IMG/VR virus record: IMGVR_UViG_3300030106_003389
Span: 1-32,832 of that record
DNA from: a virus
DNA: 32,832 nucleotides
Strand: one strand, 5' to 3'
Shown here: in pieces, positions 1 through 32,832 of the stretch
Numbering within the stretch: position 1 is the stretch's first letter
Layout of the letters: each line of letters begins with the position of its first letter
The notes under the pieces: model-generated
Databases searched by the model: none
What the model was told of the DNA's origin: nothing
What the model saw: the letters and a program-made list of their open reading frames with translations, nothing else
Translations under genes and position numbers: made by a program

Positions 1-158
1 GAGCAGGTGTGGATGAGGTGTTTGTTGAGAACGAAAGAGTTGTTACAACAAGCTATACTTTATCTACCAATAAATCAGCTATGTGTGTTGGACCAATAAC
101 AATTAACACAGGGGTTACAGTAACAATCCCATCAGGAGAGAGGTTAGTTATACTATGA
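1..158 (+). CDS. Tail fibre protein, C-terminal fragment (5' end outside window)
   Basis: An open frame runs from the first complete codon at position 3 to TGA at 156-158, with no start inside the window. The roughly 50 residues (DEVFVENERVVTTSYTLSTN ... GERLVIL) closely match the last residues of the complete T7-type fibre ending at 31951, with a few substitutions such as PITINTG for PLTLNTG. I infer the distal end of a tail fibre or fibre-associated protein. The stop overlaps the next ATG (ATGA), as it does in the other copy. Since the two copies differ at many bases, this is not the same stretch of DNA read twice. Confidence 0.8.
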   Translation, partial: AGVDEVFVENERVVTTSYTLSTNKSAMCVGPITINTGVTVTIPSGERLVIL

Positions 159-159
159 C
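105..159 (+). repeat. Fibre-tip junction repeat, left copy
   Basis: The 55 bases here are identical to 31898-31952. They cover the last codons of a fibre gene, the ATGA overlap and the start of the tip gene. Sequence on both sides is similar but diverged. Confidence 0.9.
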
Positions 160-760
160 TTGTAAACTTAACGCAGATACATCCGATGGATTAAAAATAG
201 TATCAGATACAAGTGGTGCTATAGATTTTCAATCTAATGGTGTTACCAAAATGTCTATGGATGCTAGTGGTAATTTGACTGCCAATTCATTTGTAGGAGG
301 AGGAAAAGTATTACAAGTATTACAAGCATTTAAATCTGATACATTGACAGTTTCAAATCCGACTTCATATACAGATATAACAGGATTAAGTGTGGCTATA
401 ACACCAAGCTCATCTTCTAATAAGGTTTTGGTTATAGGAACTTATTGTATTATGGGTGACACAAGTACACAGGGATATGTAGGATTATTTAGAGATAGCA
501 CACAGATTGGTTTAGGTGATGCAGTTAGTAATAGAGTTCAAGCAAGTACTCAATCTTACCCAAACCATGTAAACGAGGGAAAAAATAGTTCTTTTTGTTT
601 TTTAGACAGTCCAAGCAGCACATCAGAAATAACATACAAATTAGCAACAAGAAATCAAGGAACAGGAAATGTATATGTTAATAGGTCTCAAACTTACACA
701 GATTCAGTACAGTCATCGACCAATGCCTCTACAATTACTGTGATGGAGATTCAAGGATGA
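155..760 (+). CDS. Fibre-tip / tail spike-like structural protein
   Basis: This 201-residue protein has two parts. Residues 1-45 (MTCKLNADTSDGLKIVSDTS ...) closely match the start of the S74 fibre protein at 31948, which suggests a shared adaptor that plugs onto the preceding fibre. Residues 50-201 resemble the protein at 2298-2873, with the pattern LQAFKSDTL..SVAITPSSSSNKVL...FLDSPSS and a C-terminal TITVMEIQG. That beta-rich domain is frequent in marine phage receptor-binding or collar proteins. The start is the ATG overlapping the previous stop. No catalytic motif is visible. Structural role is likely; the ligand is unknown. Confidence 0.7.
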   Translation: MTCKLNADTSDGLKIVSDTSGAIDFQSNGVTKMSMDASGNLTANSFVGGGKVLQVLQAFKSDTLTVSNPTSYTDITGLSVAITPSSSSNKVLVIGTYCIMGDTSTQGYVGLFRDSTQIGLGDAVSNRVQASTQSYPNHVNEGKNSSFCFLDSPSSTSEITYKLATRNQGTGNVYVNRSQTYTDSVQSSTNASTITVMEIQG

Positions 761-2298: not shown

Positions 2299-2873
2299 TG
2301 GCTTTAGTAATTAAAGGATCAAGTTCAGGACAAGTTACTGTTGATGTTCCAGCAAGTGCTGGTACAAACACTCTTACTTTACCAGCAGAATCAGGAAATA
2401 TTTTAACAAATGATACATCAGGCACAATATTGCAAGTCGTATCAACGACCAAGACCGATACGTTTTCCACGACTTCCACATCAATGACAGACTTAACAGG
2501 TATGTCTGTTGCAATAACACCTAGCTCAACATCCAACAAAATATTAATTACAGGAAATATTTTCGTATCAGGGAGTTCAGCAAGTGCGTTAGTGGTCTTT
2601 AATTTAGTTAGGGGATCTACGAATATATCTATATCGACAGGATCAGGTAGTACAGATTCTACTACATTTTGTGATACAGACGGTATGCACTTGAATGAAA
2701 ATTCCACTTATAGTCAAAATCTTAACTTTTTAGATAGCCCATCATCAACTTCATCAACAACTTATAAATTACAAATGAAAGTTACACAGGGTACAGGTTT
2801 TATTAATCGCAGAGGATTGAATGATAATGTCAGAGCAGTATCATCAATTACAGCAATGGAAGTAGTAGCATGA
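2298..2873 (+). CDS. Fibre-tip / collar-domain structural protein
   Basis: The 191-residue protein opens with [20 protein letters not shown], a short adaptor repeat common in marine phage fibres (TLTLPAESGNIL at about 31-42). It continues into the same beta-rich domain as 155-760: LQVVSTTKTDTFSTTS, SVAITPSSTSNKIL, FLDSPSSTSSTTYKL, ending ITAMEVVA. I chose ATG 2298, coupled to the upstream stop, over the in-frame TTG just before it. It is a divergent tip paralogue with a different N-terminal adaptor from 155-760, so it may attach at another site. Confidence 0.7.
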   Translation: MALVIKGSSSGQVTVDVPASAGTNTLTLPAESGNILTNDTSGTILQVVSTTKTDTFSTTSTSMTDLTGMSVAITPSSTSNKILITGNIFVSGSSASALVVFNLVRGSTNISISTGSGSTDSTTFCDTDGMHLNENSTYSQNLNFLDSPSSTSSTTYKLQMKVTQGTGFINRRGLNDNVRAVSSITAMEVVA

Positions 2874-3199
2874 TAGATAGAGCAATACTAAAAATAAATC
2901 CTAATGCAAAATTTTCAGTCAATGCAGATGACATTGACCAAATAACATGGCTAGATGACACAACACCTATATCTAAGTCTGATATACAGGCACAACTTAG
3001 TTCAGTCGAATTAGATATAGCATTAGATACTTTACGAGCAAAAAGAAATAAACTACTAGCAGAAACAGATTATCTAGCACTGTCTGATTTAACAATGTCA
3101 GATGATATAAAAACATATAGACAAGAATTAAGAGATTTAACCAATGGTCTAGATACAGTAGAAAAAGTTAATGCCGTAACATTTCCAACTAAACCATAA
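2870..3199 (+). CDS. Tail assembly chaperone-like protein, copy 2
   Basis: This is a 109-residue paralogue of 757-1092. It has the same core (LRAKRNKLLAETDYLALSDL ... TYRQELRDL) and the same ending VNAVTFPTKP. The ATG overlaps the stop of the tip protein (ATGA), and its own stop overlaps the next ATG (TAATG). The Phage_tail_APC-like assignment rests on the RNxLLxxTDY and YRQELRDL motifs. The N-terminal 50 residues differ more than the rest, as expected if they contact different tip proteins. Confidence 0.7.
   Translation: MIDRAILKINPNAKFSVNADDIDQITWLDDTTPISKSDIQAQLSSVELDIALDTLRAKRNKLLAETDYLALSDLTMSDDIKTYRQELRDLTNGLDTVEKVNAVTFPTKP
3095..3196 (+). repeat. Direct repeat, right copy
   Basis: Partner of 982-1083, at the end of the second chaperone-like gene, same orientation and same protein ending. 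Differences are mostly at third codon positions. Confidence 0.85.
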
Positions 3200-6711: not shown

Positions 6712-7365
6712 CTACTGAACCATGATTTCTCTGTCTAACTTGTCTATCTGCTCTTGCAATATTGCATGTTGTTTAGGATCAATACTTTCGAGAGATATCA
6801 TGTTGTTTTCTTCTTGCTGTATCAACTTGTCTAGCATTTCTTTTTTCTGCACAGCGTTTGTGTTTTCAGATTTTCTAATATTGTTTAGAGTCTTTGTCAC
6901 ATCTGTGCAATATTTTTTTACCTTCTCTTTGGTTTGATCTTTTTCTGTTTTTGCTTCTTGTGAATTATGATCTACCTCTTCATCAGTACCGATCTCCATC
7001 AAGAATAATTTTTGCAACAGATATTTGAAAGCGTAAGACAGAGCCTTGCCATATCCTTTGTCTTGGCTATCTATACCTGATCCAGGGAAATCTCCGATTG
7101 GTAGCTTATCTCCGCTGTCAATATCTATTATTTCACAAGCAACAGTAACGCTATGTATGTTTCCGTCTTTTGAACTAGACTTACATATTGGGATGAAGAT
7201 CAACCCATGCTCCTTGAACTGTTGTTTAATTTGTGTTGATACCATGTTGTGGGTTACAGATTTGTACGGCAACCCGCCTCCTTCTTGCTTGATGAGCTTT
7301 TTACATCCACCCATAACTGCATGAAGCTTTTGATATAAGTTTTTAGTTTCTTTTTTTTGTGTCAT
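6712..7365 (-). CDS. erf: ERF-family single-strand annealing protein
   Basis: The 217-residue protein carries the ERF core: LPYKSVTHNMV at 32-42 and DSQDKGYGKALSYAFKYLLQ at 99-118, followed by GTDEEVD at 126-132. ERF proteins (phage P22 type) form rings on single-stranded DNA and anneal complementary strands. After about residue 135 the sequence is charged and coiled-coil-like, as is common for the variable C-terminus. The ATG is preceded by AAGGAGAG lying in the end of the exonuclease gene. Paired with the adjacent exonuclease it forms a lambda Red-like system. Confidence 0.8.
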   Translation of the reverse strand: MTQKKETKNLYQKLHAVMGGCKKLIKQEGGGLPYKSVTHNMVSTQIKQQFKEHGLIFIPICKSSSKDGNIHSVTVACEIIDIDSGDKLPIGDFPGSGIDSQDKGYGKALSYAFKYLLQKLFLMEIGTDEEVDHNSQEAKTEKDQTKEKVKKYCTDVTKTLNNIRKSENTNAVQKKEMLDKLIQQEENNMISLESIDPKQHAILQEQIDKLDREIMVQ

Positions 7366-7366
7366 T

Positions 7367-8323
7367 TTAACTCTCCTTTATCGAAAATACTCTGGTCTCT
7401 GTGTATTGATCAGGTATTTTTATTACTTTTGTTTTCTGTCTTTTACTTGTTGTATGTCTGAGTAGGTAGCCCTGATAAGAGGCAAGCTCCACATCTTTCA
7501 TGTGCATTTTTATCTGCAATGACGCTTCATCTTTTCTTATCTTCGCAAGCTTCTCCTCGTCTCTCGCTTTTACAAACTTCTCAATCAAGGGTTTGAGATC
7601 GTCATTGTTACCCATGTCGACTACCTCTTTTAATTGATTACCTTTGTAAAGCTTACTCGCTTCTTTTGTGTCATGCGGATCGTACCAAAAGTCCTTGTTG
7701 TCAATGACTCCGTCGAACCTATTCCAAAAGTCTGTGCCAGCATTTTCTATGTCCTCAATCATCTGTTCGTCACGCTCGAAGACAAACCATTGTAGATCCC
7801 AGCCGTTGACTAGACGCACTAATATACCTACCTTGGCCTTACAGCAGAGCATCTGCTGTTGCAGCTGATAAAGATAGGCTGGCCTGATTGGGCTGTCTTG
7901 ATGACCTGAAAAGTTTTTTATCTCTACAACTACCTCACCTGGACCAAGGCTCCAGTTTTTGTTAGAGCTGTCTGTCACATCATAAGTTTTATCAAGCACA
8001 AGCATTCTGTCTATGCTTGATCCAAGCTTGCCGTTAGATAGCTCATGGATATACGCCTTTCTGGGTTGTATCAAAACAACCTTGCTAGCTATCTGCTTCT
8101 CGAAAGCACTCCTAAATAACTGTGCAATAGGATCTTCTAATGCTTTACCAGCAATAACCTTGGGGTTGTCAACTTGCTCAATCTCCATGCCCGAAGATTC
8201 TGAGACCGCTGCTTTCAGTATATCGTTGGGGGTGAGAAACCCCTCCCCCATGATAATTGTACCTATATTGCTAGCGCCTAGCTCCTTACGTGCGAAAGAG
8301 GTAAGTCTACCTGTGTCACTCAT
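7367..8323 (-). CDS. YqaJ-type PD-(D/E)XK recombination exonuclease
   Basis: The 318-residue protein shows the YqaJ/lambda exonuclease active-site order: GKALEDPIAQLF at 59-70 (Glu63), GSSIDRML at 101-108 (Asp105), VVVEIKNFSG at 131-140 (Glu134 and Lys136), and YLYQLQQQM at 150-158 (QxQ-type motif). Such enzymes degrade one strand of double-stranded DNA ends to expose single strands for the annealing partner. Residues 240-318 are a charged helical extension. The start ATG 8323 overlaps the upstream gene by 8 bases. The direct ERF neighbour supports the call. Confidence 0.75.
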   Translation of the reverse strand: MSDTGRLTSFARKELGASNIGTIIMGEGFLTPNDILKAAVSESSGMEIEQVDNPKVIAGKALEDPIAQLFRSAFEKQIASKVVLIQPRKAYIHELSNGKLGSSIDRMLVLDKTYDVTDSSNKNWSLGPGEVVVEIKNFSGHQDSPIRPAYLYQLQQQMLCCKAKVGILVRLVNGWDLQWFVFERDEQMIEDIENAGTDFWNRFDGVIDNKDFWYDPHDTKEASKLYKGNQLKEVVDMGNNDDLKPLIEKFVKARDEEKLAKIRKDEASLQIKMHMKDVELASYQGYLLRHTTSKRQKTKVIKIPDQYTETRVFSIKES

Positions 8324-8549
8324 CGTCTATCTCCAATCCAAATTTATCTAGAGCATTGATGCGTCTTTCTTTCTCTTCAATATCAAGGCTGTCCCAGTCC
8401 TCTGGCCAGATGAGACCTGGCACGGTTTTGTAGAACCTAGCCCTTCTCTCGATAACTGCCTCTCTATCTTTTGGATTCTGCTTGTCGCCTTCACACATGA
8501 TGTCGAACAATGCCGAAACCTTAGATACCATTTTTATTTGATCACTCAT
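8316..8549 (-). CDS. Small early protein, unknown
   Basis: The 77-residue protein starts at ATG 8549 (GAGG 5 bases upstream), overlapping the recombinase stop as TAATG; the longer in-frame start at 8591 lies inside the recombinase gene. It contains VSKVSALFDIMCEGDKQNPK and PGLIWPEDWDSLDIEEKERR. The product is acidic and probably helical. I recognise no family. It is sandwiched between recombinase and exonuclease, so it may be an accessory of the recombination module. Confidence 0.6.
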   Translation of the reverse strand: MSDQIKMVSKVSALFDIMCEGDKQNPKDREAVIERRARFYKTVPGLIWPEDWDSLDIEEKERRINALDKFGLEIDDE

Positions 8550-9193
8550 TATGTCCTCGCTAGTAGATTTTTTACTGTTGTTGGGTACCAAGCTTTGTCA
8601 TTCCAAGTCTTGACACCACGTTTATTTAGAGCATCAGCTATCCCTCTGAGAGATACGATGCCCGCCTGTTTGATACCTTGGATAATGCATAGCATATCTT
8701 TGGCAAACCCATCAGCGTTTTGTATTTGCTTTTTACGGCCATTTTCACCCGCTAACAGTAGATTGGTAGGGTTGCCCAGCTTTTTGCTGTTTTCAGCCTT
8801 TATACGGGCTAATGCAGCCTTAGTACGCTCTGATATCTGCAACCTTTCCATTCTGTCCATGGCAATTTTGAAACCTGCAAGCTTTTGATCAAGATCTGGG
8901 CTGTCAAGCATGTCTATTTTCATGGACTGATTGTCTTCTAGAAACTGGCCAACTTCGTAAGTACGGCCAATACGGCTAGATGAATACACAACAAACGGTG
9001 CTTTGAGTCTTTTTGCTGTCTTGATTGCATCAAGCAACACGGGCCTGTTTCTGAATCTTGTAGCTCCAGAGATACCCTCTTCCTCGAACCAGAGAATGTC
9101 ATGATCTTTGTATTTTTGTTGTATAGCAAACCTTTGGTTGGCTACGTCTTGTTTGTCTGTGCTGACTCTTACTAGTGCTATTACGTGTTTCAT
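8549..9193 (-). CDS. Serine recombinase (resolvase/invertase type)
   Basis: The 214-residue protein has the serine recombinase catalytic domain: ALVRVSTDKQDVANQR at 6-21 with Arg9 and nucleophile Ser11, EEGISGATRFRNRP at 38-51, SSSRIGRTYEVGQFL at 71-85 with Arg74 and Arg77, and the helix-E region QISERTKAALARIK at 119-132. A C-terminal helix-turn-helix follows (SLRGIADALNKRGVKT, about 181-196). The size fits resolvases/invertases, not large serine integrases. The SD (AGAGG) lies in a small hairpin. Substrate site and whether it resolves multimers, inverts DNA or integrates are unknown. Confidence 0.85.
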   Translation of the reverse strand: MKHVIALVRVSTDKQDVANQRFAIQQKYKDHDILWFEEEGISGATRFRNRPVLLDAIKTAKRLKAPFVVYSSSRIGRTYEVGQFLEDNQSMKIDMLDSPDLDQKLAGFKIAMDRMERLQISERTKAALARIKAENSKKLGNPTNLLLAGENGRKKQIQNADGFAKDMLCIIQGIKQAGIVSLRGIADALNKRGVKTWNDKAWYPTTVKNLLART

Positions 9194-27213: not shown

Positions 27214-30140
27214 TGGCAATAGAAAACCTAACTCCACCGAAACTACAGAATAATACAGAAGAATTTGTTCAAGATATATTTGATCAAGCTGAACCTGACA
27301 TAGTAGATGAAAGCACACTAAACCTAGAAGAAGATCCTGTTGTCATAGATGAATCACAAGACAACTTTGAAGAAGAGCAGTTAGCTCTTAGACCACCAAA
27401 AAAAACTACCCTTAGAGGGCAAAAAGATGAAGACCTATCACCTGAAGAGGTGCGTCTAAAACAACAAGAAGAACTAAAACCAGAAATAAAAAAAGACTTT
27501 CTTGTAGAAGAAGATACTGGCAACGTAATATTTAAAGATTTTTCAGAAGATGAAATAAAATCAGTTAATAATTTTTTTGATGAAGTTGGAATGTCTGAGA
27601 TAGACGGCACTCAAACAAAATCATTACAAAATCTTTTTAACAGCATAGACGAAGCAACAGGCACTCAAGGTTTTAGCGATGCTATAAACAAAACCTTTGC
27701 AAAACAGTTAGATGAAATAGCAACAAGCTCAAAAATGACTGTTGATGAAATGATGAAACAGGCTGCCTCTATAGGCAGAAACGACGTATATCAATACATG
27801 TTGAGGAACAAACCTCCGTACGATAACAAGATGCTACTAAGAGGTATCGTTGAAACTAAACTACTGTACACAAGGTTAGCTGCTTTGGCAAAAGAAGCGA
27901 TACAAAGCAAAGGCAATATATCAAAAGAAAAACAATTACATTTTTATCAGACCTTAAGATTGTTTGGTACTATGTATAGCAGAACCGCAGGTGACGTTAC
28001 CATGTCGGCTAGAAAATTAGCTAGTCTAAAATATGTCGATAAACCAGATACAGATTTTTCAGAAGATTTTATAGAATTTTTAGGTAAACAAGCAAGGCTA
28101 GGAGACACTAAAGAGTTTTTACAAATAGCTAATAGTTTTCTAACTTTGAAGCCTTATCAAGCAGGCAGGTTTGCAAACGATGGTTTTGTAAAAAGATTAG
28201 GAGATGCATGGTCTGAGGTTTGGGTAAACTCTCTTTTATCATCACCTATAACCCACATTGTTAATATGTCAGCTAACTTGGGATTTAACGTACTTAGGAT
28301 TGGAGAGCAAGCTGTTGCGGCAGGAATCAACAAAATACCAGGGCTTTCTGCAAAAGACGGGGTACAGTTTAACGAGGTATTAGCTACCATCAAAGGTATA
28401 CAAAGAGGCCATAAGCTAGGCACAGCTAATTTTTGGAACGGTCTTAAAACAGGAGATGCTGCTACTACCAAACTAGATTTAAGAAGGCCTAACGCTATGG
28501 GCAAAAGACTGCTTCCAGAAAAATATAGAGATAGTTTTATTGGCGACAGTTTAGAATATATGGGCAGTTATTTTAGATTGCCAGGAAGATTCTTGGTAGC
28601 AGAAGATGAATACGCAAAAGGCGTTTTATACAAAATGGAAATAGAGAGAATAGCACAAAGAAACGCAAACGAAATCATAGCTAATGGAGGAACAAAAGAA
28701 GCGGCAGAAGATGCTTATACAAAAACAGTAACAAACCCAAACAACGACACAGTAACTAGAGCAAAACAAAATATGGAAGAAGGTACATTCCAAGCCGACC
28801 TTCCAGACGGGTTTTTAAAAAAAATACAAAACAGTATCAATCATCCTCTTGCAAGAGTGTTTATTCCTTTTTACAAAACCATTACAAACATATATTTAGA
28901 AACAGCTAAACGATCTCCACTTGCGTTCGGCACAAAAAGTTTTTACGCAGATTTAAAAAAAGGAGGATCAGCAAGGCAACTTGCACTAGCTAAGTTATCG
29001 GTAGGAACTACCATAATGTATAATTTTGGCAGCTATGCTTATGGGGGGAACCCAAATGATGATATCTATATAACAGGACACGCACCTTTTAACAGAGCAG
29101 AAAGAGACGCATTTTATAGAAAAGGTTTGTTGCCTTACTCTTTTAATGTTAAACAAAAGGATGGCACTTATAAATCTATTAGCTACGCTAGGTTTGAGCC
29201 TATATCTGCTATATTAGCTATATCAGCTGATACGGCTTATGCGATGTCGAGACCAGATCAGTTTGCAGATAAGACTGTTGCTGGCAAAATGTTAGATTTA
29301 GCTAGTGCTTCACTAGAAGCAATATACCCTTATATTGCCTCACAACCTTTCATGAAAGCTATATCTGATATAGGAAAAATACTAGAATCCCCTGGATCAG
29401 GCGATCCTTCTGGTCTTGCCGCAAGAGTGGTTGCGCAACTTACAGAACAGGTTGGAAGGGCAACGGTTGGCGTTTTCATGGAAGCTGGACCTACAGGAAC
29501 GTTTAATAATTATTTAACTAAAATGCAAGATCCTACCTTATATGATAAAACCTTTACAGAGGAACAAAGACAGAGCGCTAAAGACAATTTCTTTTTCAGT
29601 TTGCTCTTAGATGAAGAGGAGTACGAGATACCCTTATATATTAGAAAATTTTATGAGGTATACAACAATGCAACTGTAAGAAGCCCTTTCTATAATAACA
29701 ATTTAAAACCTAGATTAAACCTGTGGGGAGAAGATATGAAAGGCCCAGAAGGCGGGATTATATCTCCTTTTAAAATACAAAATGAAAGATACAACAAAGT
29801 CGATGATAAGCTATTGCAGCTTCAATTAGGCCTGTCTATGCCAAGGGCATTTATAGGAGGAGTAGCTTTATCTAGCGATCAATACTACGATTACTTAAAA
29901 TTTTTAAATGATGATAGTAAAGATATGGGCGGAGACACAATGCTAGACGAAATGGAGGACGCTATTGATGCTCCAGGCTTTGATGACCTATTACCTAAAG
30001 ACCAGATAGATGATTTAAATAGCATATTATCAGATAGAAAAACAACAGCAAAACAGATGGTTCTTGAGAAATATCCAGAATTAAATGCTAGAATTGAAGA
30101 GATACAAGAGCAAATAAAACTTAGAGGCAGAAGAGAATAA
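27213..30140 (+). CDS. Ejected internal virion protein, LPD38-like (T7 gp16 position)
   Basis: The 975-residue protein begins with an acidic Glu/Asp/Pro-rich region (1-90). A long helical body follows, then SLLSSPITHIVNMSANLGFN (about 340-360) and the block RVFIPFYKTITNIYLETAKR (about 548-567). Next come GTTIMYNFGSYAYGGNPNDD and SYARFEPISAILAISADTAY. The last blocks match the large polyvalent-protein-associated domain LPD38 as I recall it, found at the end of giant ejected phage proteins. No transglycosylase motif is seen. Its place last before the fibre gene equals T7 gp16, which spans the inner membrane on infection. Confidence 0.65.
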   Translation: MAIENLTPPKLQNNTEEFVQDIFDQAEPDIVDESTLNLEEDPVVIDESQDNFEEEQLALRPPKKTTLRGQKDEDLSPEEVRLKQQEELKPEIKKDFLVEEDTGNVIFKDFSEDEIKSVNNFFDEVGMSEIDGTQTKSLQNLFNSIDEATGTQGFSDAINKTFAKQLDEIATSSKMTVDEMMKQAASIGRNDVYQYMLRNKPPYDNKMLLRGIVETKLLYTRLAALAKEAIQSKGNISKEKQLHFYQTLRLFGTMYSRTAGDVTMSARKLASLKYVDKPDTDFSEDFIEFLGKQARLGDTKEFLQIANSFLTLKPYQAGRFANDGFVKRLGDAWSEVWVNSLLSSPITHIVNMSANLGFNVLRIGEQAVAAGINKIPGLSAKDGVQFNEVLATIKGIQRGHKLGTANFWNGLKTGDAATTKLDLRRPNAMGKRLLPEKYRDSFIGDSLEYMGSYFRLPGRFLVAEDEYAKGVLYKMEIERIAQRNANEIIANGGTKEAAEDAYTKTVTNPNNDTVTRAKQNMEEGTFQADLPDGFLKKIQNSINHPLARVFIPFYKTITNIYLETAKRSPLAFGTKSFYADLKKGGSARQLALAKLSVGTTIMYNFGSYAYGGNPNDDIYITGHAPFNRAERDAFYRKGLLPYSFNVKQKDGTYKSISYARFEPISAILAISADTAYAMSRPDQFADKTVAGKMLDLASASLEAIYPYIASQPFMKAISDIGKILESPGSGDPSGLAARVVAQLTEQVGRATVGVFMEAGPTGTFNNYLTKMQDPTLYDKTFTEEQRQSAKDNFFFSLLLDEEEYEIPLYIRKFYEVYNNATVRSPFYNNNLKPRLNLWGEDMKGPEGGIISPFKIQNERYNKVDDKLLQLQLGLSMPRAFIGGVALSSDQYYDYLKFLNDDSKDMGGDTMLDEMEDAIDAPGFDDLLPKDQIDDLNSILSDRKTTAKQMVLEKYPELNARIEEIQEQIKLRGRRE

Positions 30141-31951
30141 TGGCTACATTTGCAATAAACGAGACGGCCAGAAGAACCCAGTTTACATCGACTGGACAAA
30201 CCTCTTATGCATTTAACTTTCAGGTCAATGCTACTTCTGAAGTAGAGGTATTTAAAAACGACACTCTACAGACTCTAAGTACTCACTATTCTGTAAGTCT
30301 AAATACAGACGGAACAGGAACGGTATCATTTATAGATAACTCTGGGTCAGGCGGTACTAATCATACCCCATCAAATGGAGACATAATTACAATCATCGGT
30401 GATTTAGCTCTCTCACGAACAACCGTTTTCAGCACAGCAGCTGCTATTACAACAACAAACTTAGACACAGAATTTGACAACGTTGTCATGAGACAACAAC
30501 AAATTAAAGAGATAACAGATAGGTCTATACAGCTAAAACCAAGCACACCAAGGACTGTTACAGGCTCAGGGACGAGCGGTCCTCTTCATTTTCCTTATGA
30601 TGGGACAGCTTCAAACAATGCTAATAGAATTGTAAAGTTTGACAGTAACGGCACAGCTTTAGAGCTAGGATCAACGACTACAAATATTGATACCTTGGCG
30701 GGCGTAAGCACAGAGATTGGTTTATTAGGAAACTCTACGACTGTGGCAAACATGGGTTTACTAGGGACTTCTACCGTTGTTGCTGATATGGCGCTACTTG
30801 CCAATAGCGACGTTATCGCTGATATGGCTTTACTAGCAACGACTGATGTCATAGCTGACATGAATACTTTAGCTACCTCTGATATAGTTTCAGATTTAAA
30901 TACGTTAGCAACTAGCGATATTGTATCAGATCTTAACACCCTAGCTACATCTGACATAGTGTCCGATATCAACACCTTGGCTACATCTGATGTGGTATCT
31001 GATCTTAACACATTGGCAACGAGTGACATTGTGTCTGATATCAATACTTTGGCTACAAGCGACATAGTTTCAGATCTTAATACTTTAGCTACATCAGATT
31101 TTGTTTCAGATTTAAACACTATTGCTACATCTGATAACGTATCAAATATAGCAACCGTTGCTTCTAATGTGGCTGGAGTCAATAGTTTTGCAGAAAGATA
31201 TAGGGTTGCATCTTCTGATCCATCTAGCTCGTTAGACGCTGGTGACTTAGCATTCAACACATCATCGAACACTCTCAAGTTTTATAATGGATCGGCCTGG
31301 ATATCAATATCTGATACAGCTGCCCAAGTAACAGTAGCAGATGAATCATCAGATACCTCTTGTAACGTGCTGTTTACAACGGCTGCTACAGGAGATCTTG
31401 CACCAAAATCAGGGACCAACCTAACATTTAACTCAAGCTCTGGGGTGCTTACAGCTACAGGATTTGCAGGTGATTTAACAGGTAACGTTACAGGAAATGT
31501 TACTGGATCCTCTGGATCATGTACTGGAAATGCAGCAGGACTATCGTCTACACTAGCAGTAAGTAGCGGTGGTACTGGTGCAACCTCACTTACTGCAAAT
31601 GGAGTATTGATTGGTAATGGAACATCGGCAGTTACTGCTGTTGATATGTCTACCAAAGGAAGTCTATTAGCAGGTGATGGATCTGGAAATCCATCAACAC
31701 TTGGAGTGGGTACAAATAACTTTGTACTTACAGCAGATAGCAGCGAAGCAACAGGATTAAAGTGGGCGGCAGCGGCAGCAGCGGGAGCAACAGGAGCAGG
31801 GGGAGATGAGGTGTTTGTTGAAAACGAAAGAGTTGTTACAACAAGCTATACTCTATCTACCAACAAATCTGCTATGTGTGTTGGACCACTTACATTAAAC
31901 ACAGGGGTTACAGTAACAATCCCATCAGGAGAGAGGTTAGTTATACTATGA
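30140..31951 (+). CDS. T7 gp17-type tail fibre with repeat shaft
   Basis: The 603-residue fibre has a T7 tail-fibre N-terminal domain: FAINETARRTQFTSTGQTSY at 4-23, SYAFNFQVNATSEVEVFKND and ITTTNLDTEFDNVVMRQQQI near 100-120, which docks on the nozzle. Residues about 190-340 are twelve 12-residue repeats (NTLATSDIVSDL type) that would form a helical or triple-stranded shaft. The C-terminal part has SSGGTGATSLTANGVLIGNG and ends GERLVIL, the junction shared with the fragment at 1-158. ATG overlaps the previous stop (TAATG); the stop overlaps the next gene. Confidence 0.85.
   Translation: MATFAINETARRTQFTSTGQTSYAFNFQVNATSEVEVFKNDTLQTLSTHYSVSLNTDGTGTVSFIDNSGSGGTNHTPSNGDIITIIGDLALSRTTVFSTAAAITTTNLDTEFDNVVMRQQQIKEITDRSIQLKPSTPRTVTGSGTSGPLHFPYDGTASNNANRIVKFDSNGTALELGSTTTNIDTLAGVSTEIGLLGNSTTVANMGLLGTSTVVADMALLANSDVIADMALLATTDVIADMNTLATSDIVSDLNTLATSDIVSDLNTLATSDIVSDINTLATSDVVSDLNTLATSDIVSDINTLATSDIVSDLNTLATSDFVSDLNTIATSDNVSNIATVASNVAGVNSFAERYRVASSDPSSSLDAGDLAFNTSSNTLKFYNGSAWISISDTAAQVTVADESSDTSCNVLFTTAATGDLAPKSGTNLTFNSSSGVLTATGFAGDLTGNVTGNVTGSSGSCTGNAAGLSSTLAVSSGGTGATSLTANGVLIGNGTSAVTAVDMSTKGSLLAGDGSGNPSTLGVGTNNFVLTADSSEATGLKWAAAAAAGATGAGGDEVFVENERVVTTSYTLSTNKSAMCVGPLTLNTGVTVTIPSGERLVIL
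30718..31155 (+). repeat. 36-base in-frame repeats in the fibre shaft
   Basis: About twelve tandem 36-base units encode GLLGTSTVVADM, ALLATTDVIADM and then NTLATSDIVSDL-type repeats, ending NTIATSDNVSNI. The middle units are near-identical in protein while third codon positions vary. The unit count could change by recombination or slippage, altering fibre length. Confidence 0.85.
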
Positions 31952-31952
31952 C
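31898..31952 (+). repeat. Fibre-tip junction repeat, right copy
   Basis: Identical over 55 bases to 105-159. It spans the end of the complete tail fibre gene and the ATGA start of the S74 tip gene. Confidence 0.9.
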
Positions 31953-32832
31953 AGTTAAGATTAATGCAGATACATCAGACGGATTAAAAATAGTATCAGA
32001 TACAAGTGGCACAGTAGACGTACAGTCAAACGGCACAACCAAAATGAGTGTTACATCTACTGATATTACTGCACCTGAAGGTGTAAATATCAAAATGCAC
32101 GGCTCGTCTTCAGCAGGTACACTAGCAGGATTATGGCTAAGAGATTTACCTAGAGTTACTAACGATACAAGTACATTTGAGCACACTTACATAAACTCAA
32201 ATAATTCTATTATATTTACCAAAGGCAGTAGTGCTACAACATCAAGCAATACAGAATATTTTAGATTAGACAGCAGTGGTAAATTATATTCAGGTTCAGA
32301 TACACCTTGGCTACTAGGAAGTGGTGGCTCTTTGGCAGTATCTTTAGGTCAGGGTAGTTTTCCTTTTACTGCTGCAAATCCAAGTAATGTGGTTGGAATA
32401 TTTAACAGAATGACTACTACAGGAACAGTAGTTGAAATAAAATATAATGCTGCTGTAGTTGGCTCGATTTCAACGAATGGTAGCAGTACGACTTACAACA
32501 CATCATCAGATTATAGATTGAAAGAGAATGTTGAATACACATTTGATGCAACTACAGAAGTAAAAAAATTAAAACCTTGTAAGTTTAATTTTATAGGCAC
32601 ATCAGAAACGATAGAGGGTTTCGTAGCACATGAGCTTTCAGAGGTCGTTCCTTTAGCAGTAACAGGAACAAAAGATGCTACAAAAGAGGAAGATGTGTTT
32701 GATGATGAGGGAGTAAAAACAGGAACAAAAACAGTACCTGACTATCAAGGTATAGATCAAAGCAAACTCGTACCTTTATTAGTCAAAACAATACAAGAAT
32801 TAGAAGCTAGGATTACAGCATTGGAGAGTAAA
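31948..32832 (+). CDS. Fibre tip with Peptidase_S74 autoprocessing chaperone (3' end outside window)
   Basis: An open frame of 295 codons from ATG 31948 reaches the window edge without a stop. Residues 1-35 (MTVKINADTSDGLKIVSDTS ...) match the adaptor of 155-760. A beta-rich tip region follows. The C-terminal part has NTSSDYRLKENVEYTF at about 187-202 and GFVAHELSEVVPL at about 226-238, the Ser/Asp/Lys and His signature of the S74 intramolecular chaperone. That domain helps a trimer fold and then cuts itself off before the Ser. The sequence ends IQELEARITALESK, so only a few residues are probably missing. Confidence 0.85.
   Translation, partial: MTVKINADTSDGLKIVSDTSGTVDVQSNGTTKMSVTSTDITAPEGVNIKMHGSSSAGTLAGLWLRDLPRVTNDTSTFEHTYINSNNSIIFTKGSSATTSSNTEYFRLDSSGKLYSGSDTPWLLGSGGSLAVSLGQGSFPFTAANPSNVVGIFNRMTTTGTVVEIKYNAAVVGSISTNGSSTTYNTSSDYRLKENVEYTFDATTEVKKLKPCKFNFIGTSETIEGFVAHELSEVVPLAVTGTKDATKEEDVFDDEGVKTGTKTVPDYQGIDQSKLVPLLVKTIQELEARITALESK

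Follow-up and report, generated by a model that had tools for sequence, protein, structure and literature searches.

The two ends of the marine viral record analysed here, a single contig of 32,832 bases taken whole as our window, carry diverged copies of the same junction between a tail fibre gene and a tail tip gene, raising the question of whether one genome holds two such modules or whether two versions of one locus were caught in a single assembly. Self-comparison of the window gave an ungapped match of positions 1-253 to 31794-32046 with 220 of 253 bases identical (87%, E = 4e-86), in direct rather than inverted orientation, and both copies run in the order fibre C-terminus, ATGA stop/start overlap, tip N-terminus. 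None of the 33 mismatches falls within positions 105-159 (+), which are identical to 31898-31952 (+) and form an exact block of 55 bases. A sequence-only reading had pointed out this resemblance, the 55-base run and the pairing of an S74 tip at one end with a non-S74 tip at the other, all of which are real; it placed the block correctly, while its limits for the tail copy (31790-32035, matched to 1-250) were off by a few bases. It had also argued that this is not a simple terminal repeat, and we agree, as the copies are only 87% identical and the first and last 10 bases recur nowhere else in the window. We rejected a direct terminal repeat or physical genome end on these grounds and because the locus is internal in relatives.

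Relatives of this phage usually carry a fibre gene followed by tips in slots 1, 2 and 3. At the right end of the window, a full-length tail fibre gene containing internal repeats (30140-31951, +; an ORF with a PHROG tail fibre match) leads into a slot-1 tip (31948-32832, +) containing a Peptidase_S74 domain (PF13884; 25 bits against a cut-off of 22). The tip ends on its last codon at 32832, with the stop codon just beyond the window, and its alignment to gp21 of phage MEP301, which runs through residue 292, brings gp21 to its last residue at the same position. At the left end lies a fibre C-terminus (1-156, +; sense codons at 12-155), 96% identical to the tail copy in amino acids by tblastn and 87% in nucleotides, with the remainder of its gene outside the window. 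Through the ATGA it overlaps the start of a different slot-1 tip (155-760, +), an ORF matching the PHROG 6942 tail fibre family and having no Pfam match, whose N-terminal part, adaptor A, begins MTCKLNADTSDGLK and whose body is homologous to that of the slot-3 tip. This non-S74 tip is followed by a tail assembly chaperone (757-1092, +; PF16778, Phage_tail_APC, E = 1e-8) and by the slot-2 tip (1096-2142, +; PHROG 4492), whose N-terminal adaptor B begins MALTLHGTVSDN and whose start directly after slot 1 is conserved in relatives. Further on come a slot-3 tip with its own adaptor (2295-2873, +; PHROG 6942) and a second chaperone (2870-3199, +), so that PF16778 scores above cut-off directly after a tip at both places. 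The chaperones are paralogues at 74% nucleotide identity over 352 bp, and the paralogous stretches (732-1083 and 2845-3196) take in the 3' ends of the homologous tips 1 and 3; cassettes may also be moving between slots inside one genome. The internal repeats of the fibre gene are of LATSD type, lie at 30836-31147 and bear a weak likeness to PF20854.

The best reading of the window is a short-tailed phage (podovirus) that assembles as a circle and is related to the Methylophilales (OM43) phage MEP301 (MW452941). Its TerL and that of MEP301 share 69% amino-acid identity, and portal, capsid, tail tube, scaffold and terminase all match in an agreeing order. MEP301 was itself assembled as a circular contig, which its authors took to reflect circular permutation or terminal repeats (PMC8024684). 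The two phages share backbone type, a circular contig, the succession of fibre and S74 tip, and a related adaptor, but MEP301 has its own slot-2 gene unlike that of the window, little DNA similarity to it and a single allele, with one fibre followed by one S74 tip. Among cultured phages, adaptor A was found solely in four OM43 phages, and the window's host is therefore likely to be of OM43 type.

Comparison with relatives indicates that the contig ends very probably represent two alleles of one tip slot, sampled from mixed haplotypes of one circular genome; that the ends are alleles of a single slot appears well supported. The window would then amount to roughly one lap around a genome that assembles as a circle and was opened at its most variable spot, one tail-fibre slot; the right end would carry the S74 allele of slot 1 and the left end the non-S74 allele of tip plus chaperone. 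Haplotype 1 would read fibre, S74 tip, slot 2, and haplotype 2 fibre, tip 1, chaperone, slot 2. Where relatives hold an S74 tip, the slot-2 ATG lies about -1 to +1 nt from the stop codon of that tip; by chance, a contig would end this close (6 bases or less) to the S74/slot-2 boundary only about 4 times in 10,000. A single junction is present in 75 of 79 loci, with two close ones in the window alone; among the 24 whole records, 23 show just one junction. A genus-mate, L090, whose sequence agrees with the window at 83.6% across 11.8 kb, couples the tail-end fibre to a head-type linker (matching window positions 27-297) within one contig. The circular genome opened at a two-allele locus, one of the two options of the sequence-only reading, is thus favoured by the S74/slot-2 order, the single junctions, L090, MEP301 and the natural swaps described below.

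Assembly behaviour agrees in part. A relative 95-96% identical to the window (L193) has its contig broken inside the fibre, and 9 of 14 long contigs end within 2 kb of the junction where 2.6 were expected (p = 0.0002); the comparison contigs are mostly fragments, and we take this clustering as supporting evidence only. Counting against an opening here, the ends have no k-mer-length overlap with the expected rejoining places, such as a de Bruijn assembler often leaves. The block length of 55 is a common assembler k-mer, which we treat as coincidence since the block is internal. The haplotypes differ in the fibre as well, because the first 104 bases of the two end copies, within the fibre C-termini, contain 11 mismatches. 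For the window's own species, the tip difference between near-identical phages is seen in one place, the two ends of this contig.

The other option of the sequence-only reading, two fibre/tip modules in tandem in one genome, would give each virion two kinds of fibre. Both junction copies look intact, and three marine contigs (L077, L081 and L162) each contain two sequences distantly related to the fibre C-terminus. The layout was nevertheless seen in no window-type relative among the records searched, no close tandem junctions were found in any relative, and slot 2 directly follows S74 in relatives; joining 32832 to 1 yields no sensible gene, since the S74 reading would continue for 32 codons through the fibre C-terminus in the wrong frame, and a second whole fibre gene would need unseen sequence. 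We regard tandem modules as very improbable. A chimeric contig, in which a head piece from a clearly different phage species was mis-joined at the slot-2 start or elsewhere, is somewhat less improbable but still unlikely. Such joins do occur, as in G012 (64,460 bases, containing L189 and L190), the sole exception to one junction among the 24 whole records. However, L090 carries the head-type linker on a close backbone, and a head-type cassette is therefore natural on the window's backbone. The only difference between a chimera and two alleles is how related the two haplotypes are. The fibre locus of G012 repeats about 36.8 kb apart with 80-89% identity in the compared parts, and the contig therefore looks like more than one lap (about 1.75) of a roughly 36.8-kb phage through two diverged strains.

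Least probable, to the point of being hardly credible, is a programmed switch within the genome by serine-recombinase inversion or a diversity-generating retroelement. The window does encode a small serine recombinase (8549-9193, -), in which a resolvase domain is accompanied by a partial PF07508 domain; PF07508 is reported absent from MEP301 (PMC8024684). The junction copies are direct rather than inverted and no inverted repeats bracket the locus, so an invertible tail-fibre switch of the Gin/Cin type was rejected. A diversity-generating retroelement was likewise rejected, as a search for reverse transcriptase PF00078 gave no match while controls were positive, and the alleles differ by whole cassettes rather than by point changes.

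Exchange of tips at this junction, as two alleles of one slot imply, could be followed in pairs of natural strains drawn from records separate from the window's own sample. L060 and L061 are 99.6% identical over 4578 nt and then carry different tips, with no mismatches from 1500 to 34 nt upstream of the tip start and five in the last 33 nt; these are near-identical phages with different tips, the pattern expected at a population-variable host-recognition locus (metaviromic island). L005, with an S74 tip, and L089, with a tip and helper, are 96% identical along the 2.8 kb that precede the adaptor, and L012 (S74) and L017 (tip and helper) are 95% identical from the slot-2 start onward. These three pairs therefore indicate that both cassette kinds interchange naturally at the same two boundaries. 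S74 and helper cassettes replace each other at the adaptor and the slot-2 start, the slot-2 tip forming the right flank of the exchanged cassette.

The sequence-only reading had proposed the 55-base block as a natural crossover point for swapping tips. Swapping at the fibre/tip junction is borne out by these strain pairs, but a special role of the block finds little support. When the 33 mismatches were permuted, a run of at least 55 bases arose in 0.5% of draws. Synonymous conservation was 0.70 in the block and 0.71 in the rest of the fibre C-terminus (p = 0.67; loci detected solely through an exact-block search were left out), and we rejected the block as an ultra-conserved element since synonymous identity is equal inside and outside it. 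Across 453 pairwise alignments, homology edges peak about 21 nt before and about 240 nt after window position 31805. The shared unit of homology, judged from this clustering of BLAST edges, is a linker of about 260 nt rather than 55 nt, comprising the fibre C-terminal domain and tip adaptor A (31784-32046, +), and exchange maps to it.

This linker is carried by at least three different backbones, as told by their terminases and portals: one with a window-type terminase and a Head-tail_con portal (the window, G003, G007 and G008), one with a Head-tail_con portal and no detectable window-type terminase (G004 and G005), and one with a Terminase_6N enzyme and without a Head-tail_con portal (G009-G012). 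T7-like RNA polymerase, sought as a further backbone marker, had no match anywhere, controls included. In some pairs the fibre C-terminus differs by 43-44% and the adaptor by 1 base in 60. Distances in the fibre C-terminus and in the adaptor correlate at r = 0.31 (p = 0.0025), and linkage between the two is therefore reduced, not absent.

Tip bodies also move relative to adaptors. Alike bodies, 97-99% identical in amino acids, are found behind different adaptors in different phages, as in slot 1 of L007 and slot 3 of L014 (98% over 124 residues) and in slot 1 of L075 and slot 3 of L099 (99% over 102 residues). Adaptors thus appear to be slot-specific and bodies interchangeable. Among slot-1 tips, 23 of 39 match S74 (PF13884), and wherever the next gene is readable the slot-2 gene directly follows the S74 tip with no helper between; a small ORF comes next after 16 of 18 non-S74 tips. 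In the window and L076 this ORF is recognisably a chaperone; its counterparts in the other relatives mostly have no PF16778 match, and we call these genes putative helpers. Rather tentatively, and with the odds somewhat against it, the linker may be kept as a recombination landing pad, with self-folding S74 tips and helper-folded tips forming a common pool from which marine phages of at least three backbones could all draw.

As far as comparison of genomes can demonstrate, alternative cassettes, their boundaries and several backbones carrying them have been shown. We infer that phages exchange cassettes between a left boundary at the roughly 260-nt linker and a right boundary at the slot-2 start, by homologous recombination in mixed infection, probably helped by the phage's own pair of ERF and YqaJ-like proteins. 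The window encodes an ERF single-strand annealing recombinase (6712-7365, -; PF04404, E = 2e-11) and a YqaJ-like exonuclease (7367-8323, -; PF09588 at 21.4 bits, just below the cut-off of 22) that matches the MEP301 YqaJ protein gp05. Rad52-like recombinases of temperate phages tolerate diverged sequence, and that system resembles ours in its ERF/exonuclease pair and in exchange between diverged homologues, its substrates including side tail-fibre genes (PMC3945230); exchange in lambda was demonstrated experimentally, whereas in the window phage it is presumed. The exchanged tips would bind different receptors and so set receptor choice.

Variable tail-fibre islands in marine phages are already on record, as is the breaking of assemblies where they lie (PMC3909814, PMC6487183), and the window is a well-resolved example of that established phenomenon rather than a system of a new kind. 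As in metaviromic islands (PMC3909814; PMC6487183; PMC11094077), close relatives differ in tail fibre or tip genes and short-read assemblies break there, but in the window a single contig bears one allele at each end, and we could place the limits of exchange at the linker and the slot-2 start. Unrelated phages are known to share recognition modules (PMC10579305), and in the Alteromonas phages A5, V22 and P24 fibre and chaperone modules likewise move across unrelated backbones. In contrast to those modules, the cassettes described here carry an S74 chaperone domain or precede a separate small gene, and they can be exchanged without the fibre. An odd assembly end thereby becomes a mapped exchange boundary, and contigs broken at a tip locus may be mixed haplotypes. 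The shuffling of adaptors and bodies, with the helper pattern, points to a simple rule for telling which components determine host range in these ocean phages. A search for solved structures matching the fibre C-terminus found none; an alignment profile of the slot-1 tip matched PDB entries 8ond (bd2133, E = 3e-6) and 8oml (cell wall surface anchor family protein, E = 1e-5).
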